Shown here piece after piece: positions 6,055 to 25,333 of a stretch of 25,424 nt of DNA. The DNA comes from a virus. The DNA lies in the IMG/VR virus record IMGVR_UViG_3300005613_000380, positions 1-25,424 of that record. One strand, written 5' to 3'. Position 1 is the first letter of the stretch; the number at the start of each line of letters is the position of its first letter. Under the pieces are notes generated by a model, which made no database searches, had not been told where the DNA came from, and saw only the letters and a list, made by a program, of their open reading frames with translations. Made by a program: the position numbers and the translations under genes.

Positions 6055-6128
6055 TTGACATTTCCGTAATTATCTACGCACAATATTACAAAATTGTAGG
6101 CGGTATACCCTTCAATCACAATATTGTG
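6055..6128 (+). promoter_or_regulatory. Putative late promoter with CACAATAT dyads
   Basis: The 130-base gap 5998-6127 is AT-rich against its surroundings. TTGACA at 6055-6060 with CACAAT at 6079-6084 (18-bp spacer) makes a plausible sigma70-like promoter. GCACAATAT (6078-6086) covers the -10 and also occurs, inverted, in the operator at 379-406. A perfect 12-bp palindrome CACAATATTGTG lies at 6117-6128, at the portal start, and ACAAT/ATTGT flank 6081-6097. A shared repressor for both promoters is inferred. No terminator hairpin is evident after 5997. Confidence 0.45.
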
Positions 6129-9370: not shown

Positions 9371-10057
9371 ATGACGTTGGGCGATACCCCTTACATCTAT
9401 CGTGGAACGCAAGAGGATATTAGGCGCTTATTTTACAGCGACCATTCCATTGCGCTCACAAGGGCAGTGACCATCCCCGCAGGATACGGCGTGATTAAAG
9501 CCGGAGCCGTAATGGGGATCATCACGGAAAGCACGAACCGAGTGGACCAGTATGTCCCCTATACGGGCCTTGATGCAGTCGGAAACGTTGCGGCCGGCGT
9601 TGCCGACCTGTTTGGAGCGGCCTTCTTGACGGACGACCCAAGCACGGGCACAACCGGATATGTGACCATGGACGACAGTTACAAGTTTGCCGTTGGCGAC
9701 CATCTGGTTGCTGGCGACAGCGACTTGTCGCCTACAGACCTTGGGGCCATCACGGCCATCGACAGGACCACTTACAGCCATATTGCCGGGATCACCGTGA
9801 CCAATTCCTTTGATTCCGAAACTGTGGCCAAGGGGGCCGTAATTACCATCCAGTCAGCAACCTCATCTCCATATGTGTGCGCGAAGGGGATACTGATCGG
9901 TACGGTTGACGCAGGGACAGGCGAAAATGCGAAGGGCGCACAAGGCGTCATCGTGGTGAAGAACGCCATGCTCTACAAGAGCGGTCTCTACAACTACAAC
10001 GCGGATGTCCTGACAGACCTTGGCGGGTCTGAGGACGGCCGCTATGTTGTCATATAA
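9371..10057 (+). CDS. Head decoration protein, gpD-like
   Basis: 228 residues; AAAGGAGGTGAGCTAA precedes ATG 9371. A beta-rich, glycine/threonine/alanine-rich sequence (TIPAGYGVIKAGAVMGIITE, GYVTMDDSYKFAVGDHLVAG, AKGILIGTVDAGTGENAKGAQGVIVVKNAMLYKSGL) and position between the scaffold and capsid genes suggest a lambda gpD-like capsid-stabilising decoration protein. It is about twice the length of gpD, because of an inserted beta segment in the middle. Family is inferred mainly from position and composition. Confidence 0.65.
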   Translation: MTLGDTPYIYRGTQEDIRRLFYSDHSIALTRAVTIPAGYGVIKAGAVMGIITESTNRVDQYVPYTGLDAVGNVAAGVADLFGAAFLTDDPSTGTTGYVTMDDSYKFAVGDHLVAGDSDLSPTDLGAITAIDRTTYSHIAGITVTNSFDSETVAKGAVITIQSATSSPYVCAKGILIGTVDAGTGENAKGAQGVIVVKNAMLYKSGLYNYNADVLTDLGGSEDGRYVVI

Positions 10058-11315: not shown

Positions 11316-11786
11316 ATGAAATCAAGATTAGGACCATACCCCAGCGCAGGATTTCCGAAACTGGTGGCGGCGAATGTCTTGCCGCCGCTCGTGGCGGTGG
11401 TTTCCGGCGAATTGACCAGCAACGTAACAAGCGCACCCATGGGAGCGGCCAGATTCTCCGGGTACATCTCGGACGTATGGTTGTCCGTGGCCGGTTCAGG
11501 GAAGGATGACGCAGCGACCCTGAGCCTCACGGCGGATGTTATGATCAACGGGACCACGTGCTTGACCACGAACCCGGTGATCGCTCATGTGTCCGGCGAA
11601 GCGGCCCAGCAGAAAACCACCAAGGTGAGCGGCGACACGGGCGTCACCCAGGCCGTGCTGAGTTCCAGCAATTCGGTGTCTCAGGGCGATGTGATCAGCT
11701 ATAGCCTGACCCTGACCCGGACCGCATCTCCCACTACGGAGATAAACAACGCGGCGGTGGTAGTGGAGTTTGAACCTGCATTCTAA
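11316..11786 (+). CDS. Beta-rich Ser/Thr-rich virion protein (hypothetical)
   Basis: 156 residues; AAAGGGGGTGAT precedes ATG 11316. The body is rich in Ser, Thr, Ala and Val with alternating hydrophobic strands (LSLTADVMINGTTC, TKVSGDTGVTQAVLSSSNSV, ISYSLTLTRTASPTTEINNA), as in head-fibre or decoration proteins. Position after the major capsid gene agrees. I do not recognise the family. The abundance of surface Ser/Thr makes it a candidate acceptor for the sugar-modifying enzymes encoded downstream (inference). Confidence 0.55.
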   Translation: MKSRLGPYPSAGFPKLVAANVLPPLVAVVSGELTSNVTSAPMGAARFSGYISDVWLSVAGSGKDDAATLSLTADVMINGTTCLTTNPVIAHVSGEAAQQKTTKVSGDTGVTQAVLSSSNSVSQGDVISYSLTLTRTASPTTEINNAAVVVEFEPAF

Positions 11787-11801: not shown

Positions 11802-12269
11802 ATGCGTGTCGAACTATTGAAAACATTGAAAGGACAAAAGCTCTGGAAAAAGGGGACGGTGTTCGACGACGCCGATACCCCTTTTCCCAGGGATATTCAA
11901 GGTGAAATCCAAGCCCGTTCACGCGTAATCAAGGTGCTCCCCGACCTGCCCAAAAGGGTCGTGGAGGTCGCAGCGGAGATTGTTGCGGCGAAACCCGAAC
12001 CCGAGCCCCAAGCAGAGCAGGACGAGATCCCCCAGGATATCTTTCCGGAGCTGGAAAGACTGATCGAATTACAGGGCACCATAGCGTCCGTGGCCCGTCT
12101 GATGGATGTGTCAACCGTGACGATCAACCGATGGCGACAGAAAAGACCGCGAGCTGAAGTGATACAGAACGTCAAAGAGGCGTACGCAAAGGTGACGGCC
12201 CATGACCAAAACAGAGCTGACAACCCTTCTCCAGCAGGAGTTGAAGGGGCTTACTTCCAACCTGAATGA
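11802..12269 (+). CDS. Structural-region protein with C-terminal HTH
   Basis: 155 residues; CGGAGGT lies 8 bases before ATG 11802. The first 45 residues (MRVELLKTLKGQKLWKKGTVFDD...) form a compact basic domain seen in small head proteins. A Pro/Glu/Ala linker (KPEPEPQAEQDE, about 66-80) follows, then an HTH at 92-115 (TIASVARLMDVSTVTINRWR). A DNA-binding module in a head-gene position is unusual and may be a fusion, or may contact packaged DNA or regulate late genes. It overlaps the next gene by 68 bases. Confidence 0.55.
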   Translation: MRVELLKTLKGQKLWKKGTVFDDADTPFPRDIQGEIQARSRVIKVLPDLPKRVVEVAAEIVAAKPEPEPQAEQDEIPQDIFPELERLIELQGTIASVARLMDVSTVTINRWRQKRPRAEVIQNVKEAYAKVTAHDQNRADNPSPAGVEGAYFQPE

Positions 12270-12657
12270 CAACGATTACTCAAACGCCATTGACCAGGCC
12301 GAGCGGGATACCGGCTGGTCCATGCCGCAATCGACGGACTTCAAGGTAAAGTGGCTGATTGAGCGGAGCAAACGGCACATCTTTTTCTATCTGATGTCCG
12401 AGGCCGCCGCCAAGTTCAGGGTGGAAGACGTTCATCTTCAGCACAAGTTCGACCACTACGAAAAGCTCATCGACAAGATGGACGCTGACTTTGATCAGGC
12501 CCAGAAAGACGATCCATATCAGTTTGCAGACGTGTCCGCCTACGAGCAGTTTGGCCACAAGGTGGATGCCGGGTTTGCCTATGAGCCACAGACCGGCAGA
12601 GACCATACGTATGACGACGACAATGTGGTGCTGATTCATCCCAACGAGAACTCATGA
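12202..12657 (+). CDS. Head-tail connector-like protein
   Basis: 151 residues starting MTKTELTTLLQQELKGLTSN. It is mostly helical (NDNDYSNAIDQAERDTGW, IERSKRHIFFYLMSEAAAKF, HYEKLIDKMDADFDQA), the profile of gp6/gp15-type adaptor proteins that add onto the portal. AAAGGTGA lies before ATG 12202. Position after the head genes supports the call; sequence match alone is weak. The 68-base overlap with the previous gene implies coupling. Confidence 0.5.
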   Translation: MTKTELTTLLQQELKGLTSNLNDNDYSNAIDQAERDTGWSMPQSTDFKVKWLIERSKRHIFFYLMSEAAAKFRVEDVHLQHKFDHYEKLIDKMDADFDQAQKDDPYQFADVSAYEQFGHKVDAGFAYEPQTGRDHTYDDDNVVLIHPNENS

Positions 12658-12660
12658 TCC

Positions 12661-13281
12661 GTGTCTATCGGCGCTGACATAAAAGAAGTCTTTGAAGAGG
12701 TGGGATCGGCTTACACGATTGTCCGCGATGCCGGCAATGTGTCAGGCGAATACGGGATGTATAAAACCACATCCCAGGCCACCAAGCCCATCACCCTGGA
12801 GCATTTCCGGCGCGGAAAGCTGTCATACGATACCCAATGCACCACCGGCGACGTCATCGAGTTCGACACCACGGCGGAGCGGTTCATGGTCATGAACAAG
12901 CTCCCCAAGATGCTGGAAAACGAGGTCTACCGATACGATGCTATCTTCTACAAGTGCAATATCGCCAGCGGCGAACTGCTGAGGCCCAGCGGGGAAGTAT
13001 GGGACAGCGATACGTACCATAAAGAGACCCAGTGGAATTCGATCAAGGACAACTGCGATGCCATGCAGGTGGCGGCCCTTTACGGCAACGATCTCGAATC
13101 AGACCAGGAACTGGCCCTGCTGAATCTCCATAAAGACGAGGTTTACATTCCGCATTCTGTGGGCGCCCAAGTGATGGACCGCTGGCAACCGGCATCGGGC
13201 GAATATTATCAGGTGGCCACCATCGAAACCCGGCGATACCCCGGCGTTGACGTTCTGATTGTCGAGGAAGATCACAGGTAA
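12661..13281 (+). CDS. Phage structural protein of unknown type (206 aa)
   Basis: 206 residues from GTG 12661, three bases after the previous stop; the ribosome binding site is poor. The product begins with an EEVGSAYTIVRDAG segment, runs through mixed alpha/beta sequence and ends in ASGEYYQVATIETRRYPGVDVLIVEEDHR. Phage genes with this start and position serve as head-closure/neck components. I cannot name the family. It is the last virion-type gene before the glycosyltransferase cassette. Confidence 0.5.
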   Translation: MSIGADIKEVFEEVGSAYTIVRDAGNVSGEYGMYKTTSQATKPITLEHFRRGKLSYDTQCTTGDVIEFDTTAERFMVMNKLPKMLENEVYRYDAIFYKCNIASGELLRPSGEVWDSDTYHKETQWNSIKDNCDAMQVAALYGNDLESDQELALLNLHKDEVYIPHSVGAQVMDRWQPASGEYYQVATIETRRYPGVDVLIVEEDHR

Positions 13282-13303: not shown

Positions 13304-15322
13304 GTGAAAAAGAAGCATGTCCTGTTTGTGGGAGAACACCCCTACTCAGGGGTCGGCAACGGCAATATGATGGCCGCGATTCTTTCTCAAGTGAATCTGG
13401 AAAAATACAAAATTGCCTGCTTCTGCGCCCGAGACGTGGATCCCATCAACTTCATTTTCGATCCGCTGCCCATGACCATTGTCAATGCTACAACCCCCGA
13501 CGACTTTTGGGGCCACAGCAACCTGCTCAGCCTGTTGCAACGGCTGGAACTGGACATCCTTTGCTTTGTGGGCATCGACATCTGGCAGTACCATCGCATA
13601 TGGAACCGTATCGTCAACCTTCGGAACCAACGGGGATTCAAGATCGTATTCATCTTTCCTTACGATGTGCAGGACGTGCGGCTGGACTGGATTCACCTGA
13701 TCAACGACTGCGACGCGCCGTGCGTGTATTCACAGTATGGACTGAATACGATCAAAGACCATTGTCCGAATGCAAGATACTTCCGCCCCCCGCTGTGGAA
13801 CCACGAGCAGTTCAAACCGCTGGAAGACAGGCAGGCCGCCAGGAAAAGTTATTTCCCAAGCGTGCCGAACGATCATGTGATTTTTGGCTTTGTGGGCAAA
13901 AACCAGATCCGCAAATCCCCGGAACGATTACTGAAGGCGTTTTTTGAGGCCAAACAGGAAAACCCCAACATGACCCTGTATCTGCATACCGACTTTGACA
14001 AGGGCGTTTACAACCTGAAGCAGATCGCACGGGACATGGGCGCCCGATCCGGCGACCTCATCAGTAAGACGCCGGGCATCTATCCTGTCGAGCGGATGGT
14101 CAGCGTCTACAATGCCATTGACTGCCTGGTGAACTGTTCGATGCAAGAAGGTCTATCATGGACCCCGGTGGAGGCCATGCTGTGCGGGACCCCCTGCATC
14201 TTGTCCGACACCACGGCTCAGACGGAACTGGGGCTGGGAGTGGCCGAAATGGTTCCCTGCAACGACCTGGCGTTCGTGCCCATGGTGACCGAAGGCGGCG
14301 AATCGCACGTGGAGGCCAGGGCCTGCCGGGTACAGGACATCAAGCGGGCCATGCTCAAGGTGGCGGCAGATCCGGGACTCAGAGAAGAGATGGGTCGAAA
14401 GAGCCTGGAGCAGGGGCAAAGCTGGGTGGCGGGCATAGACAATGTCAACGACGTGCTGGATGCGGCTACGAAGGTCAAACCGAGGCCCAAAGCCAAGAAG
14501 GTCTTGTTTGCCCAATATTCATCCGCAGGCGATGTGCTCATGACCACGCAATGCTTCAAGGGAATCAAAGCGCGACACAAGAACATGCCGCTGGTCTACA
14601 TGACGCAGCCCATGTATCAGGATATCGTTGCTGAAAACCCATATGTGGATGAGATCATCGACTGGGATGAGCGCAGCCTCAAGGACTATCATGTGGTCTA
14701 CAACCCCCACGGCGAGCATATTCTGCATGGCGGGTTCAACAACCTGGATGTACCGCTTTACAGCATGTATCCGTATTTTTGCAAGGTGGATGCGGATGAG
14801 ATAGCGATCCAAGCCGTGGAGCCGGAAGAGGCTTTTTGGGACAAAAACAACGAAAGACCGATAGACTACCTCGTTGTCCACACCACAGGCGGCAGCAAGA
14901 TGTATCGGTCCTATCCCCATATGGACGTGGCCCTCAAGAATATCGGCCTTCCCATCGTCCAACTGGGCGGGGCCTCTGACATCCGTTGTAAATCGGACAT
15001 CGATCTTTGCGGTAAGCTCACTTTCAGGGAGAGCGCCTGGGTCATGAAACGCGCCAAAGCCGCGGTCGTCATAGACAGTTTCTTGTCGCATCTGGCCGGT
15101 GCAGTGGGGACGAATGCGGTGGTCTTGTACGGCCCGGCCCCCGCCAGAGTGGTCGGCCCACGGGCGCAACACGGAGCGCAGATCATCAACCTTCAGCCGG
15201 ATATGCTGGCCGTGTGCAAGATCATGAGCCATTGCTGGGGAACCAACCCCCAATGTCAAAGTCCCTGTATTCACACAATCTCGCCAACGAGAATCAAGAA
15301 GGCCCTGAAGGAGTTGTTATGA
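13304..15322 (+). CDS. Two-domain glycosyltransferase, GT4-GT9 fusion
   Basis: 672 residues; CTGGAGGTGA precedes GTG 13304. Residues ~1-395 form a GT-B enzyme of family GT4 with an EX7E motif at E282-E290 (EGLSWTPVEAM). Residues ~397-672 resemble GT9 heptosyltransferases: SSAGDVLMTTQCFKGIKARH, HTTGG at about 526-530, and AVVIDSFLSHLAGAVGTNAVVLYGP with D591. GT4 enzymes transfer from NDP-sugars; GT9 enzymes usually add heptose. One chain could therefore carry out two successive sugar additions. This is the first and largest gene of the cassette and has its own strong ribosome binding site. Confidence 0.85.
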   Translation: MKKKHVLFVGEHPYSGVGNGNMMAAILSQVNLEKYKIACFCARDVDPINFIFDPLPMTIVNATTPDDFWGHSNLLSLLQRLELDILCFVGIDIWQYHRIWNRIVNLRNQRGFKIVFIFPYDVQDVRLDWIHLINDCDAPCVYSQYGLNTIKDHCPNARYFRPPLWNHEQFKPLEDRQAARKSYFPSVPNDHVIFGFVGKNQIRKSPERLLKAFFEAKQENPNMTLYLHTDFDKGVYNLKQIARDMGARSGDLISKTPGIYPVERMVSVYNAIDCLVNCSMQEGLSWTPVEAMLCGTPCILSDTTAQTELGLGVAEMVPCNDLAFVPMVTEGGESHVEARACRVQDIKRAMLKVAADPGLREEMGRKSLEQGQSWVAGIDNVNDVLDAATKVKPRPKAKKVLFAQYSSAGDVLMTTQCFKGIKARHKNMPLVYMTQPMYQDIVAENPYVDEIIDWDERSLKDYHVVYNPHGEHILHGGFNNLDVPLYSMYPYFCKVDADEIAIQAVEPEEAFWDKNNERPIDYLVVHTTGGSKMYRSYPHMDVALKNIGLPIVQLGGASDIRCKSDIDLCGKLTFRESAWVMKRAKAAVVIDSFLSHLAGAVGTNAVVLYGPAPARVVGPRAQHGAQIINLQPDMLAVCKIMSHCWGTNPQCQSPCIHTISPTRIKKALKELL

Positions 15323-16059
15323 TCATCGGTATGAAATGCCTCAATGAAGAAGCGGCCGTCAAGCCCGTCATCGGAGACATCCATGATGAGCCATGGGTGG
15401 ATCGGATCATTGTGATCGACGGCTGGTCATCCGACGATACGGTCTATGAGCTGAAGCAGTTCCCCAAGGTCGAGGTTTACCCGCACAAATGGGAGAAATG
15501 GTTCCATGCCCAAGAAGTCGTCCAGTCCAACATCTTGTTGCAGTACATACCTCTGGGATCCACATTCTTCATCCTGGATTTTGATGAAAGATGTTCGCCG
15601 GAACTCAAATCACTACTTTCTGACATCGACCAGTCCGGTATGCCCGACGACGTGGACTGTGTCCATGTGTCCCGAAAGTCCTATGAGCTTATGCGATTCG
15701 ATGATTCGCCGTTTGCTATGCCCGACGAGGCAACCGGGTTCTGGCTGACAAGCCATCAGATCGGCCAGTACCCCGACTTTCAGTTGCGGATCATCCGGCG
15801 CAAGCTGGGGATGCACTGGGTCAACTCCCCGCACCACATCATGTATGGACTGCGGGAAGGGCTGTTTACCAACAAAAACATTCAGGCCGACCTGATTCAT
15901 TACCATGGCAAGGAAGACGCCAGGGATCGGCATGGCATCGAGCGGCAATGGCTGCGACACCAGGCCATGCGGCGCAAACTGGGTCTCGAAGCCGATGTGT
16001 TTGAATGCGATCCTCAACCTGAAATGGCACACTATGCGGAACCGGAGCATTGGGAATGA
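15319..16059 (+). CDS. GT2-like glycosyltransferase
   Basis: 246 residues from ATG 15319, overlapping the previous TGA; AAGGAG lies upstream. The start MIIGMKCLNEEAAV, then IIVIDGWSSDDT (D34) and FFILDFDERCSPEL (DFD at 87-89), are GT-A fold motifs of family GT2: nucleotide-sugar binding and a metal-binding DxD. A C-terminal HHIMYGLREG...LIHYHGK region carries histidines often used in substrate binding. Donor and acceptor are unknown. Confidence 0.82.
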   Translation: MIIGMKCLNEEAAVKPVIGDIHDEPWVDRIIVIDGWSSDDTVYELKQFPKVEVYPHKWEKWFHAQEVVQSNILLQYIPLGSTFFILDFDERCSPELKSLLSDIDQSGMPDDVDCVHVSRKSYELMRFDDSPFAMPDEATGFWLTSHQIGQYPDFQLRIIRRKLGMHWVNSPHHIMYGLREGLFTNKNIQADLIHYHGKEDARDRHGIERQWLRHQAMRRKLGLEADVFECDPQPEMAHYAEPEHWE

Positions 16060-16256
16060 TCGGCATTTTGGACTTTAAGCCATCAAATGTCTTACCGGAA
16101 GAAATCGTTGAATTTTTCGCTGAATATTGGGCGGATGAGATCAATGAACGGGAAGAAAACCTGGGCGAGTTTATCCAGCGGGTCGCGGAATACGCGCTGA
16201 TCACAGAAGCAAGGGCCTACATGAGCCAGTATGGCGACATAGGAGCTGTGGCATGA
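16056..16256 (+). CDS. Small hypothetical protein in glycan cassette (66 aa)
   Basis: ATG 16056 overlaps the previous stop, and its stop overlaps the next start (ATGA-type junctions on both sides), so it is translated in the operon. The product is MIGILDFKPSNVLPEEIVEF..., acidic, helical and without cysteines. It could be a partner of the adjacent radical SAM enzyme, as small acidic proteins often are, but nothing in the sequence proves it. Confidence 0.55.
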   Translation: MIGILDFKPSNVLPEEIVEFFAEYWADEINEREENLGEFIQRVAEYALITEARAYMSQYGDIGAVA

Positions 16257-17098
16257 AACCCATCTACGATATGTACATCGTCAACATCGACATCACCAAA
16301 CACTGCCACCATGCGTGCCCTTACTGCATTCGGTACATGCGGCATTTGAGCCCGGACAAGAAATACCACATGAGCCTGAAGGACTTCCAGAAGGCCCTTG
16401 ACTCTCTGGTAGGCTGGCCCAACGAGATTGGTTTGTGCGGCGGTGAACCGACGCTGCATCCCCAGTTCCCCGAGATCCTTCGGCTGATCAACGAGCATAA
16501 GGCCAAATACCCCGGCAGCCGGTTTCAGATGTTTACGGCCCACAGGGGGAACTTCGAGAAATACCATTCTCTGTTGCAGGGCGCCCTCTGCTGCGTTCAT
16601 CTCAACGAGCACAACGATGCGCAAAAGTCGGTTTGCCTGCACCAGCCCTCTACCGTAGCCATCGGCGAGGTGGTGGCAGATGAAACACTGAGAGAATCCC
16701 TGATCGACGATTGCTGGGTTCAAAAGACGTGGGCGCCGGTGATCAACGAAAAGGGCGCCTACTTCTGCGAGGTGGCTGGATCTATGGCCACGGTCATTGA
16801 CGGGCCGGACGGCTTTCCCATTGAACCGGGATGGTGGGACAAGACGCCCGAGCAGTACCAGGAACAGCGGGATTTCTTCTGTAAGCGATGCGGCATGGCC
16901 CTTCCCATGCAGCGGGACCTGCTGGGGTCACAGAAAGAGAAGTTCACCCCGAAACTGCTGGCCGAGTTCAAGCAGCATGACGCACCCAGAATGAGCGACA
17001 AGGATGTGGATATGGTGGGCTATCGGTTTTCCACCAAAGATATTGAAAAAAACCGGGATGGTTGGGACCCGGGGAACTACAGACAGGATTTGCAATGA
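16253..17098 (+). CDS. Radical SAM enzyme with C-terminal Cys motifs
   Basis: 281 residues. The canonical CX3CX2C [4Fe-4S]/SAM motif is C18-H-H-A-C22-P-Y-C25, and GGEPT at 63-67 positions SAM. C172 and C210/C213 (FFCKRCG) near the C-terminus suggest auxiliary cluster or zinc binding, as in SPASM/twitch-type enzymes. Such enzymes make radical modifications of peptides, sugars or cofactors. Lying among glycosyltransferases, it may modify a sugar or an acceptor protein (inference). Confidence 0.85.
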   Translation: MKPIYDMYIVNIDITKHCHHACPYCIRYMRHLSPDKKYHMSLKDFQKALDSLVGWPNEIGLCGGEPTLHPQFPEILRLINEHKAKYPGSRFQMFTAHRGNFEKYHSLLQGALCCVHLNEHNDAQKSVCLHQPSTVAIGEVVADETLRESLIDDCWVQKTWAPVINEKGAYFCEVAGSMATVIDGPDGFPIEPGWWDKTPEQYQEQRDFFCKRCGMALPMQRDLLGSQKEKFTPKLLAEFKQHDAPRMSDKDVDMVGYRFSTKDIEKNRDGWDPGNYRQDLQ

Positions 17099-17844
17099 GA
17101 ATCAGCGTCATCACAGCCTGGGGAGATGAGCATCTGTTGGCCCCCTACTTCTGCCGGCATTATTCTTTTGCAGACGAGATCATCGTCCTGATGGGACCGG
17201 GGATAAGCCAAGAGACCTGTGAGATATGCGATGGGTTCCCCAACGTGAAGGTCCGGGAGGTCCCCTATCCCAACGGCAAGTGGGATATGGACGTGAAGCA
17301 GGATGCTTTGACGTACACGGCCCACAATGAGGTTCAGGGGGACTGGGTGATCCTGGTGGATGCCGATGAGTTTGTCTTCCCCATGGCCCCGACCCCGGCC
17401 AATACTCTGGAGCCCATATTCGATCCAAGGCCGTTTCTGGAAACGGTTGACGGCAACGTGGTTATGGCTGCCATGTGGCACGTGTATCGGAATGTGAACG
17501 ACAAGGACTTGGATCCCAGACAACCGCCGTTGTTTCAGCGATGCTATGGCGACCCCGAAATCGAGCACCATTACATCAAACCCATCGTGGTGAAGCCCCG
17601 TGAAAGCCATATCAAATGGCACATAGGCGCTCACAGGTATTTCGACAATGAGCATATCCAAGTGTCGAGCAAGCGGTTCTACGGCGTTCACTGGCACTGG
17701 GCCGATGTGGATATCGCCATCGCCAGACACAGGATGGTATCGGAAAGAATTGTGGATCCCCAGAAGTGGCTAACCGATGCTACAGACGAAAACATGATTC
17801 GAGCACGGTGCGAGGCGCATAGGAATGACCCGAGACTGTTCTGA
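17095..17844 (+). CDS. GT-A type glycosyltransferase (GT2/GT92-like)
   Basis: 249 residues; ATG 17095 overlaps the previous TGA. The start MRISVITAWGDEHLLAPYFC and DWVILVDADEFVFP (DAD at 89-91) match the GT2/GT92-type 'DADEF' enzymes, where DxD binds the metal-nucleotide-sugar. A later IKWHIGAHRYF...VHWHWADVD section is rich in His and Trp and probably forms the acceptor site. Sugar specificity cannot be read from the sequence. Confidence 0.8.
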   Translation: MRISVITAWGDEHLLAPYFCRHYSFADEIIVLMGPGISQETCEICDGFPNVKVREVPYPNGKWDMDVKQDALTYTAHNEVQGDWVILVDADEFVFPMAPTPANTLEPIFDPRPFLETVDGNVVMAAMWHVYRNVNDKDLDPRQPPLFQRCYGDPEIEHHYIKPIVVKPRESHIKWHIGAHRYFDNEHIQVSSKRFYGVHWHWADVDIAIARHRMVSERIVDPQKWLTDATDENMIRARCEAHRNDPRLF

Positions 17845-18370
17845 GATCGAAGCCGAATTCCAACGGCGCAAGGTGCTCACCCTGGACATCAATGAGCATC
17901 TTGAGACTCTTCGGCAGCTTGCTTCCCAGGTGGCCCACGTGACCGAGTTCGGCGTTCGGGAAGGTCACTCGACGGTAGCCTTGGCGGCAGGGAAACCTGC
18001 GGTTTTAATCTCTTACGACATCCGACATCCCGGCCATGGATTGTTGGAGTTGATTTGGGAATGCGTGCCTGACTACAAGTTCGTCATGGAGAATACCCTG
18101 GAGGCCGTTATTGAGCCGACGGACCTGCTGTTGATTGATTCATACCACACCTATAGCCAGTTGAAGCAGGAACTTGAAAGACATGCAGGCAAGGTGAGTT
18201 ACTGCATTGCGCTGCATGACACGGAAACATTCGGTGATACAGGAGAAGACGGGACGTCTCCAGGTCTTCGGCAAGCGGTAAAAGAATTTTGCGACGCTCA
18301 CCCAGATGAATGGTTCGAGGTGGAGCACTACCCCAACAACAACGGCTTGACCGTATTGTCGAGAGGATAA
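17825..18370 (+). CDS. Class I SAM-dependent methyltransferase (Methyltransf_24-like)
   Basis: 181 residues; ATG 17825 overlaps the previous gene by 20 bases. The SAM site is VTEFGVREGHSTV (E41-G43-G47), followed by ISYDIRHP and DLLLIDSYHTYSQLKQEL (D100-D105). The DSxHxY pattern is characteristic of the Methyltransf_24/cephalosporin-hydroxylase group that O-methylates small molecules and sugars. It may cap a glycan end here (inference). Confidence 0.8.
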   Translation: MTRDCSEIEAEFQRRKVLTLDINEHLETLRQLASQVAHVTEFGVREGHSTVALAAGKPAVLISYDIRHPGHGLLELIWECVPDYKFVMENTLEAVIEPTDLLLIDSYHTYSQLKQELERHAGKVSYCIALHDTETFGDTGEDGTSPGLRQAVKEFCDAHPDEWFEVEHYPNNNGLTVLSRG

Positions 18371-18945
18371 TGAGCGATCATCCCTTTATAGAAGTTGTCA
18401 TCCCCTACGAGCCCTGTAAGCGGTCTGGGAAGGCGTACAACCGGGCCATGGAACACGCCTCTGACTGGGTGCTCATATTGGACCACGACCTCTTTCTGGC
18501 ATGTGCCAACTGGTATGAAGCGGCCTTGGATGCCGTGACCAAGCTGGGCCACAGGGCGGGCTGGATATCTGCTGTTACCAACCGGACCCCGTGTGCCATG
18601 CAGAAATCCCAAGGGTGCCCCGAGGGAAGCGACAACCTGATCGACCATATCCATTGGGCTGAGAGGGTCTGGAAAGACCATGGCAGCAGTACGGTTCATC
18701 ATGATGGACTGGGCTATACCGGGTTCTGGATTCTGACCCATAAAGAGGCATGGGAGAAGGTGGGGGGATTCCCTGAAGACAAAGGCTTTCACGTGGACAG
18801 CGCCTATTGCGAGGCCCTGTTCAATGCCGGGTATCAAGCCCACGTGATGCCTGGGGTCTACGTTTATCATCTGATGGATCGGAAAAACGAAGTGTGGAAG
18901 TGGAATCGATGGAAAAACTTTGGAACTGAGTGGAGGGTGTTGTGA
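18370..18945 (+). CDS. Glycosyltransferase family 2-like protein
   Basis: 191 residues; ATG 18370 shares a base with the previous TAA. It contains VVIPYEPCKRSGKAYNRAM, the DxD in DWVLILDHDLFL (D38-D40), and the C-terminal GFWILTHKEAWEKVGGFPED...VYVYHLMDRK typical of GT2 acceptor-binding regions. It is short for the family because the first beta-alpha unit is reduced, yet the main motifs are present. It likely adds one sugar in the same pathway. Confidence 0.8.
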   Translation: MSDHPFIEVVIPYEPCKRSGKAYNRAMEHASDWVLILDHDLFLACANWYEAALDAVTKLGHRAGWISAVTNRTPCAMQKSQGCPEGSDNLIDHIHWAERVWKDHGSSTVHHDGLGYTGFWILTHKEAWEKVGGFPEDKGFHVDSAYCEALFNAGYQAHVMPGVYVYHLMDRKNEVWKWNRWKNFGTEWRVL

Positions 18946-19256
18946 CCATATTCGTCTGCAAAATGTGCGGCCGGTCCATCCGGCAGGAAGAGAAGCCCAT
19001 GTGCTGCTATTTCGATCGCATGGACGCCATTGAAAACATCGGCGATGAGGACGCAATGAAGATGGGGCTGAGCATCCCGGAAGGCGAACGGTTCGAGTTC
19101 CCGGGGGATGTACAGTGGGACCCGGATACGGGAAAACCAGCAAAAATAAATTTGGTTCCAAAATACAGTAAGTCTGGCTGGCCAGAGGCTTTGGTCCCAG
19201 AGGGAAAAACGCTCCATCAGTTCCAGAACGCCATTATGGCAAGGGTGCGACAATGA
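18942..19256 (+). CDS. Small zinc-ribbon protein (104 aa)
   Basis: GTG 18942 overlaps the previous TGA; GGAGG ends five bases upstream. The N-terminal TIFVCKMCGRSIRQEEKPMCCYF has CX2C (C6, C9) and CC (C21, C22), which resembles a zinc ribbon. The remainder is polar, with a C-terminal EGKTLHQFQNAIMARVRQ helix. It may be a structural or adaptor component of a modification complex. The function is unknown. Confidence 0.55.
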   Translation: MTIFVCKMCGRSIRQEEKPMCCYFDRMDAIENIGDEDAMKMGLSIPEGERFEFPGDVQWDPDTGKPAKINLVPKYSKSGWPEALVPEGKTLHQFQNAIMARVRQ

Positions 19257-20116
19257 CCATCTCCATCGCCATCAACCTCGACACCCGACCCGGCTTCCTT
19301 GAGCAGAAGACCGAGCAGGGCACAATGCTGAACGGCACCCGGTCGCTGGATTTCTTTACCGATGGGGTTATCAACAAGGTCCGGTTCTTTGAGGGTCACG
19401 ATATCGAGACGACCGTGTTCATCGACGTTCACGATCCGCTGCCGAAAGAGACCCAGGACAGGCTGCTGGAGATGCAGACGAACGGGATCATCGACAATCT
19501 GGTGTTCAACCGGCATACGGAAAAGTATCTTGGAGAATACTTCCCAAAATGGAACGACCTAAACTTCCTGAACGCCATGACCATTACCCGTGGGGACTAC
19601 CTGGTTCACTTTGACGGCGACATGAACGCCTTCATCGAGGACCGGAGCGTTGTTGATGAATGGCTGAAATGGCTGGATGAGGAGAAATACCAATATATCT
19701 GCTACCCCAGCCAGCATTCACCCGGGCCTGCGGTAGACGGGAGGTATAAGTCATACTGGTGGGCCAGCACTCGGTTTTTTATCACCAAGCGGATGAACGA
19801 TCTGTACCCCAATATATCTGAGTACAGTGAAATCGTGAAATGCCTCAGCGATTCGAATTACCTTTTCAAAAACTATGCTGAAGATCCAAATGAACCAAAA
19901 AATCCATGGCTTGAGCACATCCTCGGCATGTGGGCGGTAAGCCAGAAACGGGTTTACTATCCCCCCATCGAACCCAACCGCTATCTCATCTTTGCATGGT
20001 CCCGGTATTACTCTGGCGTGTTGCAGCACCTCAACGAATGGCCTTACGAAAAGGTTGTCGAATACGTGAACAAGATCAGCTACCCGTGCGATGTGGCGGC
20101 TCAGGAGATCAAATGA
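19253..20116 (+). CDS. Glycosyltransferase-like protein (GT-A fold)
   Basis: 287 residues; ATG 19253 overlaps the previous stop. MTISIAINLDTRPGFLEQKT... begins a Rossmann-like strand, and GDYLVHFDGDMNAFI carries DGD at 121-123, the metal-binding position of GT-A enzymes. Later, YWWASTRFFITKRMNDLYP and the LEHILGMWAVSQKRVYYPP region fit acceptor-side sequences. Resemblance to GT2 is weaker than that of its neighbours, so family is uncertain. Confidence 0.65.
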   Translation: MTISIAINLDTRPGFLEQKTEQGTMLNGTRSLDFFTDGVINKVRFFEGHDIETTVFIDVHDPLPKETQDRLLEMQTNGIIDNLVFNRHTEKYLGEYFPKWNDLNFLNAMTITRGDYLVHFDGDMNAFIEDRSVVDEWLKWLDEEKYQYICYPSQHSPGPAVDGRYKSYWWASTRFFITKRMNDLYPNISEYSEIVKCLSDSNYLFKNYAEDPNEPKNPWLEHILGMWAVSQKRVYYPPIEPNRYLIFAWSRYYSGVLQHLNEWPYEKVVEYVNKISYPCDVAAQEIK

Positions 20117-21189
20117 AAATAGCTCTGACAGGCAATGTTTTTCCTTTCGGCATCGGCCACAGTTACGGCGGCGAGCGCATTCTTGGCTACCTGGTGAAGG
20201 AACTGGCGAATCTGGGCCATGAGGTTTATCTATTTGCCAGAGCGGGGACCAACGTCCCGGAAGCCACTGACTACATCCCGGTCGGTCCGCTGACCAACGC
20301 AGAGGACGTGCATTTTGAAGCGGCCAAGAAATACTTTGCCAATGCCGGGTTTGATCCTGATGTTTATTTTTGTGGCTACTTTGGCGAGGGCTGGTATCCC
20401 GAAACCCAGGAGCGGTGGCCCTATTGCGAATTGGTGTGGAATGTCTGGTGTCATTCGTGGTGGCAACTCAAGCAAAAACCTTTCAATGTGGTGACGTACT
20501 CCAAAATATTACAGGAGGACTTTCAGCGCCAGAACATTGAAACTACCATGATTCATTATGGTCTTCCCAAAGACCTGTACGCCTTCCAGCCCAAGAAAGA
20601 GAATTACGCCTGCTGGATCGGCAAACTGGAAGGCGGCAAGGCCCCCCGCATCGGCATCGAACTGGCCAGGGCCGCAGGGGTCAAATTGGTGGTCATGGGG
20701 CCTCCTTACAATACCGGGACCTTCTGGAATGAGGTCTATCCCTACATCGACAATAAGACGGTCTTTTGGGTGCGCGGTGTGGATGACGCCATGAAGTACG
20801 AAATTATGAGCAAGGCCAAGTGCCTGATCTATTCAAACGATAACTCATGGAAAGAACACTTCGGGATCATCATGGCCGAGGCCCTGGCCATGGGGACTCC
20901 CGTGGTCGGCATGAACCGGATCAACCAGGACTGCTCCATTGTGGTGGACAAGATCATCGAACACGGCAAGCACGGGTTCATCCTCAATTACCGGGATTCC
21001 AATAACCTTCAGGAGATCCTCGACGCCGGCGTCCCCCTGATCAACCGTATCCACGAGATCGACCCTGCCGACTGCCGGCAACAGTTCGAGGATCGGTTTA
21101 CCGCGGACCTGATGGCCCGAAGATACGAATGGCTGTTCGAGCGGATTGCGCAAGGTCAACGATTTGGAAGCGTGGAGGTGCCGTTTTGA
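20113..21189 (+). CDS. GT4 glycosyltransferase
   Basis: 358 residues; ATG 20113 overlaps the previous TGA. N-terminal FPFGIGHSYGGERILGYLVKEL and HEVYLFARAG are the acceptor-binding Rossmann start of GT-B enzymes. The EX7E motif is E248-HFGIIMA-E256 in KEHFGIIMAEALAMGTPVVGMN, which binds the NDP-sugar. It ends with a C-terminal helix returning to the first domain. It is a retaining enzyme, in line with the family. Confidence 0.88.
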   Translation: MKIALTGNVFPFGIGHSYGGERILGYLVKELANLGHEVYLFARAGTNVPEATDYIPVGPLTNAEDVHFEAAKKYFANAGFDPDVYFCGYFGEGWYPETQERWPYCELVWNVWCHSWWQLKQKPFNVVTYSKILQEDFQRQNIETTMIHYGLPKDLYAFQPKKENYACWIGKLEGGKAPRIGIELARAAGVKLVVMGPPYNTGTFWNEVYPYIDNKTVFWVRGVDDAMKYEIMSKAKCLIYSNDNSWKEHFGIIMAEALAMGTPVVGMNRINQDCSIVVDKIIEHGKHGFILNYRDSNNLQEILDAGVPLINRIHEIDPADCRQQFEDRFTADLMARRYEWLFERIAQGQRFGSVEVPF

Positions 21190-21923
21190 TCATTTCCGCA
21201 CAGAGAGAAACCCGACCTATGGGGGACAGAAGAGTTCTGTACTACCTGGAGCAGAAGGGCTTCTATCGTTGCATCGACTTTGGCGGGGTACAAAGGCCCT
21301 GGGCCTCTAAGCATGTGACCACCTACGTGGATCTGGTAAGCCCGAAAGAGTGGGAGAAGCGATACCCGGGGATGTATGACGATCACCCCGAGATATGGGA
21401 ATCCAGGCTTATTCAGGCCGATTGCGAGAACCTGGATACCTGGGCGTTGCTGGCTGATGAAGTTGAACAAAACGGACGGTTCGACTTCGCTATCAGCACG
21501 CATATGGTGGAACACCTGATGAACCCGAAGGCTTTCTTTGAGATGCTGCCGATGGTTGCGAGGCAAGGCTACATCGGCGTCCCCAACAAGATATTTGAGT
21601 TGGGTTGTGGCCGGGAGTTCACTGAAGAAGGGATTGAACGTCTGGGCCTGACCGGAACCTATCGCGGCGCCTTCCCCCATCGGTGGATCAGCACGATCAA
21701 GGACAACGTGCTGTGGCTGTTCCCTAAGCTGGGCGTCCTTGAATATGTGAACCTGGGATTTGAAGACACCCTGAAACATTACGAACCATTGGAATGGGGT
21801 CAGTTGGGGTTCTTCTGGGAAGACGACATCCCGGTGAGGCTGGTGACGGATGCGGACATCGGGTTCCCGAATCCCCAGGCCGCCATAGACTTTTACAGAA
21901 AGGAGTTGAGAGACGGGCTATGA
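21186..21923 (+). CDS. Class I SAM-dependent methyltransferase-like protein
   Basis: 245 residues. I chose TTG 21186 because GGAGG (21174-21178) lies 7 bases upstream and the codon overlaps the previous TGA. FYRCIDFGG (SAM-binding strand), TYVDLVSPKEW, RFDFAISTHMVEHLMNPKAFF (H106-MVEHL) and GYIGVPNKIFEL follow the Methyltransf_11/23 outline. The first glycine motif is eroded (DFGGVQRPW), so activity is likely but not certain. Confidence 0.65.
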   Translation: MIISAQRETRPMGDRRVLYYLEQKGFYRCIDFGGVQRPWASKHVTTYVDLVSPKEWEKRYPGMYDDHPEIWESRLIQADCENLDTWALLADEVEQNGRFDFAISTHMVEHLMNPKAFFEMLPMVARQGYIGVPNKIFELGCGREFTEEGIERLGLTGTYRGAFPHRWISTIKDNVLWLFPKLGVLEYVNLGFEDTLKHYEPLEWGQLGFFWEDDIPVRLVTDADIGFPNPQAAIDFYRKELRDGL

Positions 21924-22687
21924 AACACGATTTGATCCTTGGCTGTGGTATTGGCAGATGTGGAACCGGATGGTTGTCGTTCTTCATGTTCCTCAATCCC
22001 AAGATAGCCGTATGGGACGGACCTGGGATGGGAGAGATGTTTGACCATACGATCGAGAAGACGGACCTCCCGCTGAGTGACCTTCATGACGTGTGGGGAG
22101 ACGATTACCAGGAACCCACCCATGCCATGAAAAACGGTCTTGGCAAATGGGAAGGCTTTGACGAATTCACGGAGTATTACGATCGACGTATTTTGGGAAG
22201 GCGACAGTCTGAGGTCTACTTCGTTTCCCATGTCTTCGGAGAACAATGGTATTCGGTCTATGCGGATCATTTTGAATGCAGCCCTATCTGCGTGTGTTGC
22301 GCCCGGAAGGTCATTAGTCATTACCGATCGTTCAAGAGATGGTATCACGTCGACGGGATTACGGCTGAGGACTTCGTTGGCCGGCTTCGTGGATCCATGA
22401 ATTACATGGATGAGATTGTGGGCAGGGGCATCCCGGTGGTGGCTCTCAATATCCCTGATTACACGGTGAAGACGTGCGCCAAGAAAGCGGCCGCGACCAT
22501 GGCGAAGATCGGGATCGCCATGAGTGATGAACAAAAGTTGTTTCTCAAAAAGCGCCGGAAACTTGGGCCTTCACCTGTGGAGATAAACGAAACCGATAGC
22601 CAGCTGCTGAAAGAGCTTACTGCGGTGCCTGATTTTGACGATGTACTATTTCGGTATGACGCTTTCAGGAGAAAATATGAAGCCTGA
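21920..22687 (+). CDS. Sulfotransferase-like protein
   Basis: 255 residues; ATG 21920 overlaps the previous TGA. The N-terminal LILGCGIGRCGTGWLSFFM matches the PAPS 5'-phosphosulfate loop (GxGRsGTxWL). RKVISHYRSFKRW has R129 and S137 at the usual 3'-phosphate-binding positions. Cytosolic-type sulfotransferases move a sulfuryl group from PAPS to sugars or alcohols. Sulfation in a phage late region is unusual. The Ser at the 5' loop is replaced by Cys14. Confidence 0.7.
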   Translation: MKHDLILGCGIGRCGTGWLSFFMFLNPKIAVWDGPGMGEMFDHTIEKTDLPLSDLHDVWGDDYQEPTHAMKNGLGKWEGFDEFTEYYDRRILGRRQSEVYFVSHVFGEQWYSVYADHFECSPICVCCARKVISHYRSFKRWYHVDGITAEDFVGRLRGSMNYMDEIVGRGIPVVALNIPDYTVKTCAKKAAATMAKIGIAMSDEQKLFLKKRRKLGPSPVEINETDSQLLKELTAVPDFDDVLFRYDAFRRKYEA

Positions 22688-23867
22688 CATCACTTTCATA
22701 TTCCCACCCAGCCTTTTTCTGCTGGACCAGGCGGTCTTTCCGCCCCTGGGAATCATGTACCTGTCGGCCTACCTGAAGCAGCATGGCGTCAAGGTTCAGT
22801 GCCTGGACATGGGCATTGGCCACACCCCGGACATGGCCGAGGCCAACATTATCGGCGTGTCGTTTACCACCCCGCAGCGGCTGGAGGCGTTTCGGCTGGC
22901 AGAATATTTCGATTCCAATGGCGTCCCCCATATCATTGCGGGCGGTCCCCATGCGACCCACATGCCGGATGAATGCTGCGACCATGGTTTTGACGTAGCC
23001 ATCAGTGGACGGGGAGAGTTGCCGCTGTTGAACTATTCCAACAGCTATCCTCCGGACGGTATCGCCATTGACGACTACCCCTTTCCGGATCGGGATGCGC
23101 TGCCCATTCACGACTATCACTACGAGATCGACGGGAAACCGGCCACCCCCATCATGACGTCCCGGTCATGCCCGTTTCACTGCGCCTTCTGCGCCAAGAT
23201 CGACAACGACTTCCAGATGCAGTCTGCCGAGCGCACGGTGGCCGAGATCGAGCATGTTCACGACCGATACGGCTTCGAGGCGTTCATGATCTTTGACGAT
23301 GTTTTTGTGGCCAGCAAGAAGCGGCTCAAGAAAATTGTGGATATGATCGGTGGCCGGTACGCGTTCAGATGTTTTGCCCGGAGCAACCTGCTGGATGATC
23401 AGGTATGCCGCTTGTTGAAAAAAATGGGTGTGGTTGAAGTGGGTATTGGAGTTGAATCAGGTTCCAGCGACGTTCTTGAGAAAAACATGAAGGGCACGAC
23501 CCGAACCATGAATACCCGGGCCGTGGAACGGCTTCGCAACCACGGTATCCGGGCCAAGGCGTTTTTGATTGTCGGGTTGCCTGGAGAAACCACAGAAACC
23601 ATCGTGGAGACCGCCGACTGGATTGAAGAGGCCCGACCCGATGATGTGGACATCTCTATCCTCCAGCCCATGCCGGGATCTCGCATCTTTGCCGATCCCG
23701 AAAAATGGGGCATCCAGTACCAGTACAACGGCAAGCCTGGATGGTACAAGGGCACGCCCGGGCAATACGAGACCACGATTCAGGTGGGGGATCTGATGGC
23801 GGACGAACTGGTCCAATGGCGGGACCTGCTGGAACGGGAATATAAAAAACCGGAGCTGCTGCGATGA
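22677..23867 (+). CDS. B12-binding-like radical SAM enzyme
   Basis: 396 residues; ATG 22677 is inside the previous gene's end, with CAGGAG upstream. Residues 1-120 form a cobalamin-binding-like Rossmann domain (PPLGIMYLSAYLKQHGVKVQCLDM), but the DxHxxG cobalamin His is absent. The radical SAM motif CX3CX2C is C165-C169-C172 (SCPFHCAFC), followed by FMIFDDVFVASKK, VGIGVESGSSDVL and KAFLIVGLPGETTETI. Family members methylate unactivated carbons or form C-C/C-S bonds. The substrate may be a sugar or peptide. Confidence 0.87.
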   Translation: MKPDITFIFPPSLFLLDQAVFPPLGIMYLSAYLKQHGVKVQCLDMGIGHTPDMAEANIIGVSFTTPQRLEAFRLAEYFDSNGVPHIIAGGPHATHMPDECCDHGFDVAISGRGELPLLNYSNSYPPDGIAIDDYPFPDRDALPIHDYHYEIDGKPATPIMTSRSCPFHCAFCAKIDNDFQMQSAERTVAEIEHVHDRYGFEAFMIFDDVFVASKKRLKKIVDMIGGRYAFRCFARSNLLDDQVCRLLKKMGVVEVGIGVESGSSDVLEKNMKGTTRTMNTRAVERLRNHGIRAKAFLIVGLPGETTETIVETADWIEEARPDDVDISILQPMPGSRIFADPEKWGIQYQYNGKPGWYKGTPGQYETTIQVGDLMADELVQWRDLLEREYKKPELLR

Positions 23868-24064
23868 CCGTGATCTGGATTTGCCCGGAATGCCGGTGCA
23901 AGAACGAGGAGCCTGACGGCGAAATGAGCGGTTACCGTTGTAAGAATTGCGGGAGGCCGGTGGACAATATCATGAACATTTACTGGGAGAAACATAGCGG
24001 CGTACCGGGACCGGGTCCCAGAATATGCCCGTACCTGCCGCCGGACCCGAGGGAGACATGCTGA
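23864..24064 (+). CDS. Small zinc-ribbon protein (66 aa)
   Basis: ATG 23864 overlaps the preceding TGA. WICPECRCKNEE...YRCKNCGRPVD forms two CX2C knuckles (C7/C10 and C26/C29), a classical zinc ribbon of the rubredoxin-like/'YgiT' shape. The C-terminus is Pro/Gly-rich. It is the second ribbon protein in the cassette and sits directly after a radical SAM enzyme, so a metal or partner-binding role is possible. Confidence 0.6.
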   Translation: MTVIWICPECRCKNEEPDGEMSGYRCKNCGRPVDNIMNIYWEKHSGVPGPGPRICPYLPPDPRETC

Positions 24065-24450
24065 CCTTGTTTGTGGTGCAGAGCTGTGCAGACGCCAAAG
24101 ACCCCGGACCCACGGTGGCGTCTTTTGACGGGCTGGCCCATGAAATCCACTTTGTTCCCAATCTTCGGGCCGTCAACGAGGCGCTGGTCCAGAGCGACTG
24201 GTATGCGGTGATCTACGACGACGAACACATCGACGAACCGTTGATGGAAGGGCTCAAGGTCTTTACTGAGGAAAGCTCGGCAGACATGCTGGTTCTCCTG
24301 AAGAAAACCAGCGGGGGGTCCTATTTTCGGTGCCCGAGACTGTTTCGCCGCGATGTGATGCTCAGGGACGACGCCCTGATCCCCCAGGCGCCGGGGCTGG
24401 CCTTTGATACAGTGTTGAATGGAATGATCCATGATAACGATCCGGATTAA
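24058..24450 (+). CDS. Small GT-A-like protein of unknown function (130 aa)
   Basis: ATG 24058 with GAGGGAGAC upstream overlaps the previous stop (24062-24064). VASFDGLAHEIHFVPNLRAV, DWYAVIYDDEHIDEPLMEGL, ADMLVLLKKTS and CPRLFRRDVML resemble a trimmed GT-A core (YDDE in place of DxD) but are far shorter than real enzymes. It may be a degenerate glycosyltransferase or an accessory subunit. It ends the cassette, overlapping the structural gene at 24431. Confidence 0.5.
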   Translation: MLTLFVVQSCADAKDPGPTVASFDGLAHEIHFVPNLRAVNEALVQSDWYAVIYDDEHIDEPLMEGLKVFTEESSADMLVLLKKTSGGSYFRCPRLFRRDVMLRDDALIPQAPGLAFDTVLNGMIHDNDPD

Positions 24451-24988
24451 AGACAGCGACCTCAAGCGGTATCTAAATGCGCTCAACAAGTTGCGCACGA
24501 CCGTGGAGACGTTCGGCAAGGACGAAATGCAGCGGCGGTGCGCGGTGGATTATTATCAGTTGGTGGTGAAGAATATCCTGAACACGACATCTCCACAACC
24601 GTCATACAGAGGTCGCTATGGCGATTGGAAAAAAAAATACGGCTGGATGGGCTACCCCTCCCCCGGCAGGCTGCGGGGCGATCTCATCAAGAACATGACG
24701 GCATTCAAGGACAGCGGCAATGGGTGGTGGGGCGGCATTCCCAGGGGAACAACGGACCAGGGCGGGAAGTCGTGGTTTGGCAAGGGATCGAAAGGGCCAG
24801 GAGGCGGATCTCGGGATATCGGCAAGTACGGGTGGGTGATGGAAAAAGGCGGTGACTATTCGGCCCAGGGGGGCGGAAGACACCCGGGCCGTCCTGTCTT
24901 TGAACCCACAGCCAAAGAATACGCTCGGGAAGGATGGGGCAAGCGCGGCCAGGAGGCCCTGAACGAACTCAAGAAGGCGTGGTCGTAG
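24431..24988 (+). CDS. HK97 gp10-like neck/tail completion protein
   Basis: 185 residues from ATG 24431 (20-base overlap). MITIRIKDSDLKRYLNALNK..., a Lys/Gly-rich middle (SYRGRYGDWKKKYGWMG; WFGKGSKGPGGGSRDIGKYG) and GRHPGRPVFEPTAKEYAREG with a C-terminal helix match the gp10-type 'RPFL.PA...' end of tail-completion/neck proteins. They fit the tail to the head connector. Structural genes therefore resume here after the 11-kb insert. Confidence 0.65.
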   Translation: MITIRIKDSDLKRYLNALNKLRTTVETFGKDEMQRRCAVDYYQLVVKNILNTTSPQPSYRGRYGDWKKKYGWMGYPSPGRLRGDLIKNMTAFKDSGNGWWGGIPRGTTDQGGKSWFGKGSKGPGGGSRDIGKYGWVMEKGGDYSAQGGGRHPGRPVFEPTAKEYAREGWGKRGQEALNELKKAWS

Positions 24989-25117: not shown

Positions 25118-25333
25118 ATGCAGATACTCGATATCTACCCTAAAGACGTTCACGTCAACCTTGACTTGACGGCCACAGAGGTCAAGGGGTTGATCGAAGC
25201 CCTGAGTGCAGCCAAGATCGATTACAATGGGAAAGAGAATCCCGACATGCAGCACCATGTGGCCATACTTGACCGTTTTTACAAGCTCTTGACGGAGGTG
25301 CAGGATGGACTACCTCAGCATCCAGCAGCATAA
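25118..25333 (+). CDS. Small phage hypothetical protein (71 aa)
   Basis: MQILDIYPKDVHVNLDLTATEVKGLIEALS...; a beta-helix protein with a short Asn/Asp-rich C-terminus. The codon at 25118 is preferred; an in-frame TTG at 25106 is the alternative, and neither has a good ribosome site. The 'L.LT..EV..L...L' pattern occurs in small phage proteins of unknown function. It overlaps the next gene by 29 bases. Confidence 0.5.
   Translation: MQILDIYPKDVHVNLDLTATEVKGLIEALSAAKIDYNGKENPDMQHHVAILDRFYKLLTEVQDGLPQHPAA

Follow-up and report, generated by a model that had tools for sequence, protein, structure and literature searches.

Virus-encoded glycosyltransferases have been described in several systems, and these are compared here with a large cassette of glycan-modifying genes in the IMG/VR virus record IMGVR_UViG_3300005613_000380, whose whole length of 25,424 bases is the window of this study. 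The chlorovirus PBCV-1 encodes glycosyltransferases of its own that work in the cytoplasm, and its capsid glycan is methylated. Bacterial O-antigen and flagellin-glycosylation islands have conserved ends and an exchangeable middle and contain the same enzyme classes as the phage cassette, including HldE parts. The gtrABC cassette of phage P22 encodes membrane proteins, has its own promoter and lies beside attP. Glycosyltransferase genes also occur in the head modules of Synechococcus phage S-CBS4 and Microcystis phage Mae-JY09, together with a methyltransferase in S-CBS4. In the mycobacteriophages Che8, Corndog and Myrna, phage glycosyltransferases reportedly modify capsid and tail proteins (Freeman et al. 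2023 via PMC12619734, PMC12363180, PMC11256854), and one of these papers places the glycans at the C-terminal ends of the capsid and tail tube subunits (PMC12619734 citing Freeman 2023).

The window cassette (positions 13304-24450) resembles P22 gtrABC in being a phage glycosyltransferase cassette, but its products appear soluble and its genes lie within the late gene order. A membrane flippase and lipid-linked glycosyltransferase of gtrABC type were not found in it, the P22 control being detected, and instead of adjoining an integration site or a module end the cassette always stands between connector and neck genes. The S-CBS4 and Mae-JY09 glycosyltransferases are 27-28% identical to the GT4 half of the first cassette gene, and the match is confined to that half. 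Their loci comprise few genes, located between portal and protease in S-CBS4 and between the capsid gene and a head-tail adaptor in Mae-JY09, and no radical SAM enzyme is annotated in either. An earlier note on the window, made from its sequence alone, had stated that sugar genes do not normally lie inside morphogenesis modules. Since both of these phages have glycosyltransferases there, that statement does not hold, and position in the head module alone is not new. The PBCV-1 capsid glycosyltransferase 2p72 is among the fold matches of the predicted structure of g15, the last cassette gene; PBCV-1 is a eukaryotic virus, unlike the window phage, and the likeness seen is one of fold. The phage cassette differs from the bacterial islands in sitting in a morphogenesis module and in having no apparent flippase or polymerase.

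Judged from its sequence, the cassette is probably a modular virion-glycosylation locus, glycosylation of virion proteins being the best reading of it, and the virus family most likely coats its particle with a variable glycan, as bacteria vary their surface sugars. The arrangement was not found in the open-access literature searched, most subscription journals being outside the search, which fits the proposal of the earlier note that it is undescribed. New as far as searched are the size of the locus, its radical SAM content, the combination of an anchored, constant site with a middle open to exchange, and the different arrangement seen in a related clade.

Gene content of the cassette

The block lies between the connector genes, ending at 13281, and the neck gene, starting at 24431, in the order that the earlier note had given. 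It had claimed 13 genes; a total of 15 open reading frames (ORFs) was counted, two small ORFs included:

13304..15322, +, GT4-GT9 fusion, the anchor gene (Pfam PF00534, E 9e-10; PF01075, E 4e-9)
15319..16059, +, GT2 glycosyltransferase (GT2a), the second conserved gene (Pfam PF00535, E 8e-4, below cut-off)
16056..16256, +, small ORF of 66 amino acids, overlapping both neighbours
16253..17098, +, radical SAM enzyme (Pfam PF04055, E 1.6e-10)
17095..17844, +, GT2 glycosyltransferase (Pfam PF13704, E 3e-8)
17825..18370, +, class I methyltransferase, CmcI-like (Pfam PF13578, E 4e-4, below cut-off)
18370..18945, +, GT-A glycosyltransferase (PHROG 26101 glycosyltransferase, E 4e-9, consistent though under the curated cut-off)
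18942..19256, +, small cysteine-rich protein, zinc-ribbon-like (CxxC motif by eye)
19253..20116, +, probable GT-A glycosyltransferase (DGD motif by eye only)
20113..21189, +, GT4 glycosyltransferase (Pfam PF00534, E 3.5e-10)
21186..21923, +, class I methyltransferase (Pfam PF13489, E 2e-4, below cut-off)
21920..22687, +, possible sulfotransferase (N-terminal motif by eye only)
22677..23867, +, B12-binding radical SAM enzyme, conserved near the right end (PF04055, E 2e-20; PF02310, E 3e-12)
23864..24064, +, zinc ribbon of 66 amino acids (PF23783, E 1e-4, below cut-off)
24058..24450, +, g15, a mini GT-A-fold protein (AlphaFold pLDDT 95.2)

Both domains of the predicted GT4-GT9 fusion were recovered by profile. 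The GT9 domain passes its curated threshold (PF01075, 36.5 bits vs 22), and the protein also matches the heptosyltransferase models TIGR02193 and TIGR02195 (E about 1e-9). Its C-terminus contains four cysteines that are conserved in the aligned full-length copies (window 15240-15300) and may form a metal site. These cysteines gave a lead to a TibC-type protein heptosyltransferase for the GT9 half; TibC was not among the PDB profile matches, and it is kept as a lead only. Among the other GT-A and GT-B enzymes that had been named, the GT2 at 17095 and the GT4 at 20113 stand by profile and those at 15319 and 18370 fall below cut-off, while the protein at 19253-20116 has no Pfam or NCBIfam match and no meaningful PDB match. 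The GT2 at 15319 is 78-84% identical in several relatives. The two radical SAM enzymes were confirmed by profile, one with a B12-binding domain. Both methyltransferases gave consistent profile matches below curated cut-offs, and of the two zinc ribbons the second is consistent below cut-off, whereas the first was recognised by eye only; homologues of the latter (18942-19256) occupy the same place in relatives. The sulfotransferase-like protein (21920-22687) could not be confirmed, with no match in Pfam or NCBIfam and no meaningful one in PDB, nor could the sulfation suggested for the window phage, which depends on this one protein. Prokaryotic viperin was rejected as the identity of the radical SAM enzyme at 16253, only about the first 80 residues matching and far below cut-off, and a defence-system identity was rejected because the radical SAM matches are only partial.

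The best PDB matches of the modelled g15 are the SunS/ThuS S-glycosyltransferases (E 1e-4, TM 0.64-0.69 of query). The model does not indicate a complete SunS-type enzyme, since g15 has 130 amino acids vs 333-421 and the likeness is in fold only. A sequence relationship of g15 to the neighbouring GT2 was rejected, there being no profile match to the cassette GT2 family. This fold, shared with peptide S-glycosyltransferases, and the two radical SAM enzymes, one of them B12-dependent with PhpK and RiPP-type model matches, would also suit a phage-borne natural-product cluster for a small molecule or peptide, such as a modified peptide, a nucleoside or a sugar compound. The match of the B12 enzyme to the PhpK-type P-methyltransferase model (E 8e-35) is far below cut-off. 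No precursor peptide, exporter or immunity gene was recognised in the cassette, glycosyltransferases are many, the site is fixed between head and tail genes, and minimal cassettes consist of GT4-GT9 and g15 only; a natural-product cluster is very improbable.

From GT4-GT9 to the neck, each of the 15 gene junctions is an overlap, of 1-20 nucleotides and in ten cases of exactly 4, when the start of the second methyltransferase is taken as GTG 21186; the nearly continuous stop/start overlaps described before were thus borne out. The junction from connector to cassette is a 22-nucleotide gap with a Shine-Dalgarno sequence. No excess of promoters or terminators was seen in the cassette region, and its G+C content (0.541) is close to that of the head genes (0.544). 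Overlap is a trait of the family: 49 non-redundant cassettes have 276 junctions, of which 193 overlap, 113 of them by exactly 4 nucleotides.

A fixed insertion site with an exchangeable middle

Related contigs, over a hundred in number, were gathered by scans with capsid, terminase, connector and GT4-GT9 queries. The following window genes delimit the site:

12202..12657, +, conn1, a connector-region protein (position kept in relatives; no family match)
12661..13281, +, conn2, a connector-region protein, left border of the insertion site (conserved in alignment; no family match)
24431..24988, +, neck/tail-completion protein, bounding the site on the right (a relative matches PHROG 5, E 0.0032)

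Among 108 related contigs, 71 have a cassette at the site, 33 are empty and 4 are unclear or other. In the 71 the GT4-GT9 gene comes after the connector protein, and in the 33 the neck gene follows the connector directly, with or without g15, which occurs in some empty-site phages too. A long GT4-GT9 ORF lies directly behind conn2 in all 65 contigs having one, and this anchor stays in one place down to capsid identities of about 40-45%. The search for the same insert in related phages, proposed in the earlier note, was therefore positive, and interruption of the block by host operon genes was not encountered. The GT4-GT9 profile had no match in 198 genomes of the bacterial phylum of one binned relative; the same profile recovered the copy carried by a viral contig in the bin of another genome. 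In L042:7494-9328 the GT4-GT9 gene is broken over several frames, through sequencing error or decay, and in L047:4900-9450 the small head gene and conn1 are separated by an insert of about 4 kb containing unassigned ORFs of 672 and 485 amino acids.

Complete cassettes range from 2.4 kb (GT4-GT9 plus g15) to 11.1 kb. The left end is kept (GT4-GT9 and usually GT2a), the right end is often kept (the B12 radical SAM enzyme and g15), and the middle differs between relatives. Additional genes in relatives encode a carbamoyltransferase, sugar epimerases, polysaccharide pyruvyl transferases, DegT aminotransferases, hexapeptide acetyltransferases, GT8 enzymes and sulfotransferase-like proteins. Contig 3300017963_000257 has a major capsid protein (MCP) only 50% identical to that of the window, but its GT2a, GT2c and GT4 are 84, 84 and 85% identical, and phages with 77-79% identical MCP retain only part of the gene set of the window. 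From these sequence comparisons exchange is visible, and the middle genes are read as exchanged between phages. The divergence of the anchor tracks that of conn2 (r 0.78) and, less closely, that of the capsid (r 0.57).

GIY-YIG endonuclease-like genes, recognised by eye, were seen in L034 (in the cassette of G011) and in L033 (between conn1 and conn2 of G005), and they are a possible driver of cassette exchange. As a possible means of insertion, such genes in or beside some cassettes would also suit a cargo island that settled at a tolerated gap, with enzymes acting elsewhere and a position devoid of functional meaning, and so would the existence of minimal and empty versions. The retention of the anchor in one place across such capsid divergence and the overlap of 70% of junctions argue against this, and we regard it as decidedly unlikely.

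Sugar donor, soluble enzymes and possible acceptors

Two related loci carry split HldE genes between conn2 and GT4-GT9 (L077:9757-11389; L067:10691-11952), those of L077 matching an RfaE-domain-I-type kinase (E 2e-64) and an RfaE-domain-II-type adenylyltransferase (E 2e-47). Because a heptose-phosphate kinase and adenylyltransferase lie beside the GT9 fusion, this gene context points to ADP-heptose as the putative GT9 donor. A simple hydropathy test, which detected all of its positive controls (P22 GtrA, GtrB and GtrC), found no transmembrane stretch in the 15 window cassette proteins, and made only six membrane calls in the 325 proteins of 49 cassettes, three of them in GT4-GT9 itself. A DUF2061 protein (L121:7842-8216) was the sole clear multi-spanning membrane protein seen in a cassette. 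No polymerase, flippase, lipid-carrier glycosyltransferase or multi-spanning acyltransferase was apparent in these 325 proteins. Given this lack of membrane spans, assembly of a lipid-linked polymer by the cassette appears unlikely, and the predicted soluble enzymes fit a cytoplasmic acceptor.

These observations bear on the second function that had been proposed, late remodelling of the host envelope, in which the glycan would be placed on lipopolysaccharide or another surface polymer for receptor masking, superinfection exclusion or serotype conversion. GT9 is the family of the heptosyltransferases of lipopolysaccharide synthesis, O-antigen loci typically combine conserved ends with a variable middle, and surface polysaccharides often bear pyruvyl, carbamoyl, acetyl and methyl caps. 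Cytoplasmic lipopolysaccharide core enzymes also work without a membrane span, and because lipopolysaccharide GT9 enzymes are likewise cytoplasmic, envelope modification is the main rival to virion glycosylation. Against it stand the lack of the membrane steps named above, the lone DUF2061 protein excepted, and the location of the cassette beside virion genes in every case, and we consider it rather unlikely. The earlier note had left the choice between the two functions open; virion glycosylation is the better supported, mainly through the cassette-less clade with its Ser/Thr tails and second cassette described below.

Glycosylation of phage DNA against restriction was also considered, as DNA-acting phage glycosyltransferases are well known (PMC12619734). 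A hydroxymethylase of thymidylate-synthase fold was found in none of 17 related records, which may be fragments, with the controls detected, and for this reason the explanation is very improbable. A Tet/JBP search found nothing, which in the absence of a positive control counts for little, and the capping enzymes suit protein or polysaccharide glycans better.

For the window phage, one head gene is a candidate acceptor:

11316..11786, +, small beta-rich head gene, candidate glycan acceptor (co-occurrence with cassette; AlphaFold pLDDT 85.6)

Among contigs having a capsid gene, it is present in 52 of 66 with a cassette and in none of 31 empty ones; five more cassette-bearing contigs have a different gene with a similar N-terminal motif at its place. 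A separate scan with this gene placed it behind the capsid gene in 60 of 60 loci, and a cassette was present in all 39 of these loci that extend past the connector. The modelled protein weakly resembles TNF/C1q-like jelly rolls, including a bacterial lectin domain (best structural match E 1.4e-3, TM about 0.4-0.5). This sequence evidence, suggestive only, makes its product the likeliest acceptor in the window phage. As proof of an acceptor the head protein was rejected after tree and partial Mantel tests.

In a tree of capsid plus connector, the empty contigs form one clade (SH-aLRT 100) and one distant outlier; the tree is unrooted, so that gain and loss of the cassette are indistinguishable in it. 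In the empty clade the C-termini of MCP, conn2 and tail tube are Ser/Thr runs such as TTTTSSSTTTTT (e.g. L246, L035 and L086). Such runs were found in 18 of 19 MCP and 18 of 19 conn2 proteins of empty contigs, the exception being the outlier, and in all 24 full-length tail tubes when the outlier is left aside; cassette-bearing phages had none (MCP 0/49, conn2 0/49, tail tube 0/25). ORFs of at least 90 amino acids with a Ser/Thr run numbered 0 in 1.42 Mb of cassette-bearing loci vs 97 in 0.44 Mb of the empty clade, counting overlapping loci more than once. The C-terminal capsid and tube glycans reported for mycobacteriophages parallel these tails. At the same connector-to-g15 insertion site, L100:5327-7519 encodes a 730-amino-acid protein consisting largely of Ser/Thr repeats.

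Long records of the empty clade contain a second glycan cassette directly behind a Ser/Thr-rich tail protein:

L243:4190-13422; L244:4401-12822; L245:2919-16211, second glycan cassette of the empty clade

It begins with a GT4 anchor, followed by methyltransferases, GT2, sulfotransferases and radical SAM enzymes, with a PIG-L deacetylase gene in one record; several of these gene names were assigned by eye. Of the 7 empty-clade records that extend 14 kb or more beyond conn2, 5 have its GT4 anchor, and none of 24 cassette-bearing records does. By their predicted gene content, the two clades carry different glycan loci at different places.

The viral lineage and the meaning of the locus

The head, cassette and neck genes of the window are all on the + strand. 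Its remaining genes are as follows:

3872..5785, +, terminase large subunit (PHROG 9, E 5e-12)
6128..7813, +, portal protein (PHROG 10963 portal, E 4e-4)
7895..9370, +, head maturation protease, S49 (PHROG 53, E 6e-102)
9371..10057, +, head decoration-like protein (a relative matches PHROG 49 head decoration, E 7.6e-5)
10077..11300, +, MCP (PHROG 29, E 9e-31)
11802..12269, +, small protein, encoded next after the small head gene
25118..25333, +, small conserved ORF, behind the neck gene in relatives too

The neck relative matches PHROG 5 (Neck1/tail completion) weakly, and nothing was found for the connector and neck proteins in PDB profiles. In relatives the neck gene is followed by genes for a 158-amino-acid protein, a tube-like protein of about 195 amino acids and a tape-measure-sized protein of 1178-2017 amino acids. 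With these tail genes behind the neck, the block lies inside the head-to-tail order, and this position is general in the family. The earlier proposal of a glycan-modifying cassette set among the morphogenesis genes, its expression probably shared with the virion genes, is supported. No tail sheath gene was found in 17 related records, on which ground a myovirus identity was rejected; by gene order this is an apparently siphovirus-like, long-tailed lineage of uncultivated phages. A search of the phage collection with the capsid gave one match, very weak. Host assignment by terminase relatives was rejected, as five binned genomes belong to unrelated groups and probably contain misbinned viral contigs. 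A tRNA-Met gene lies at window 500-572, and apart from it the first 2.6 kb show little clear coding signal.

Virion glycosylation may be pictured as follows. Soluble glycosyltransferases would be made in the host cytoplasm from overlapping genes, alongside the head and tail proteins, and would build a short glycan on at least one virion protein from host nucleotide sugars. The GT9 half of the anchor is likely to contribute a heptose. The methyltransferases and radical SAM enzymes would cap and diversify the glycan, with carbamoyl-, pyruvyl-, acetyl- and sulfotransferases adding to the capping in relatives. Exchange of the middle genes would shift the glycan type like a serotype, the site and anchor genes remaining constant. 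In the window phage the acceptor would most readily be the product of 11316-11786, the small head gene immediately after the capsid gene.

Several points weigh against this interpretation. The related contigs are fragments, and a terminase search of the phage collection found no cultivated relative. Nine cassette-bearing contigs of one clade, mostly with a small cassette, have no small head gene, and the divergence of that gene tracks the anchor no better than that of the portal does (both r 0.43, allowing for MCP and conn1). Cassette presence changes only about twice on the capsid tree, so the links of the cassette with the head gene and with Ser/Thr tails are two independent contrasts at most. 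That the Ser/Thr runs accept glycans is something we infer, and since they belong to the cassette-less clade they favour virion glycosylation for the family and give no direct support for the window cassette.

A fuller proposal is put forward tentatively: the lineage may possess a serotype system of its own, in which an exchangeable locus at a fixed site of the head-to-tail operon would make a complex, heptose-containing glycan, methylated and capped in other ways, on the head surface, while the related clade would use another cassette behind its tail genes and carry mucin-like runs of Ser/Thr at the ends of its capsid, connector and tail tube proteins. Virion glycosylation has been known from a small number of phage isolates, each with one or two transferases. 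About a hundred environmental contigs suggest that in this lineage the virion module permanently includes a large glycan locus, which varies like a bacterial serotype locus, and that a related clade has an alternative form with apparent acceptor tails of its own. If true, the family would offer a natural experiment on why phages coat themselves, be it against environmental decay or predators, for receptor choice or in superinfection, and could be mined for glycosyltransferases that modify proteins in the cytoplasm, for radical SAM enzymes acting on sugars and for short acceptor tags.

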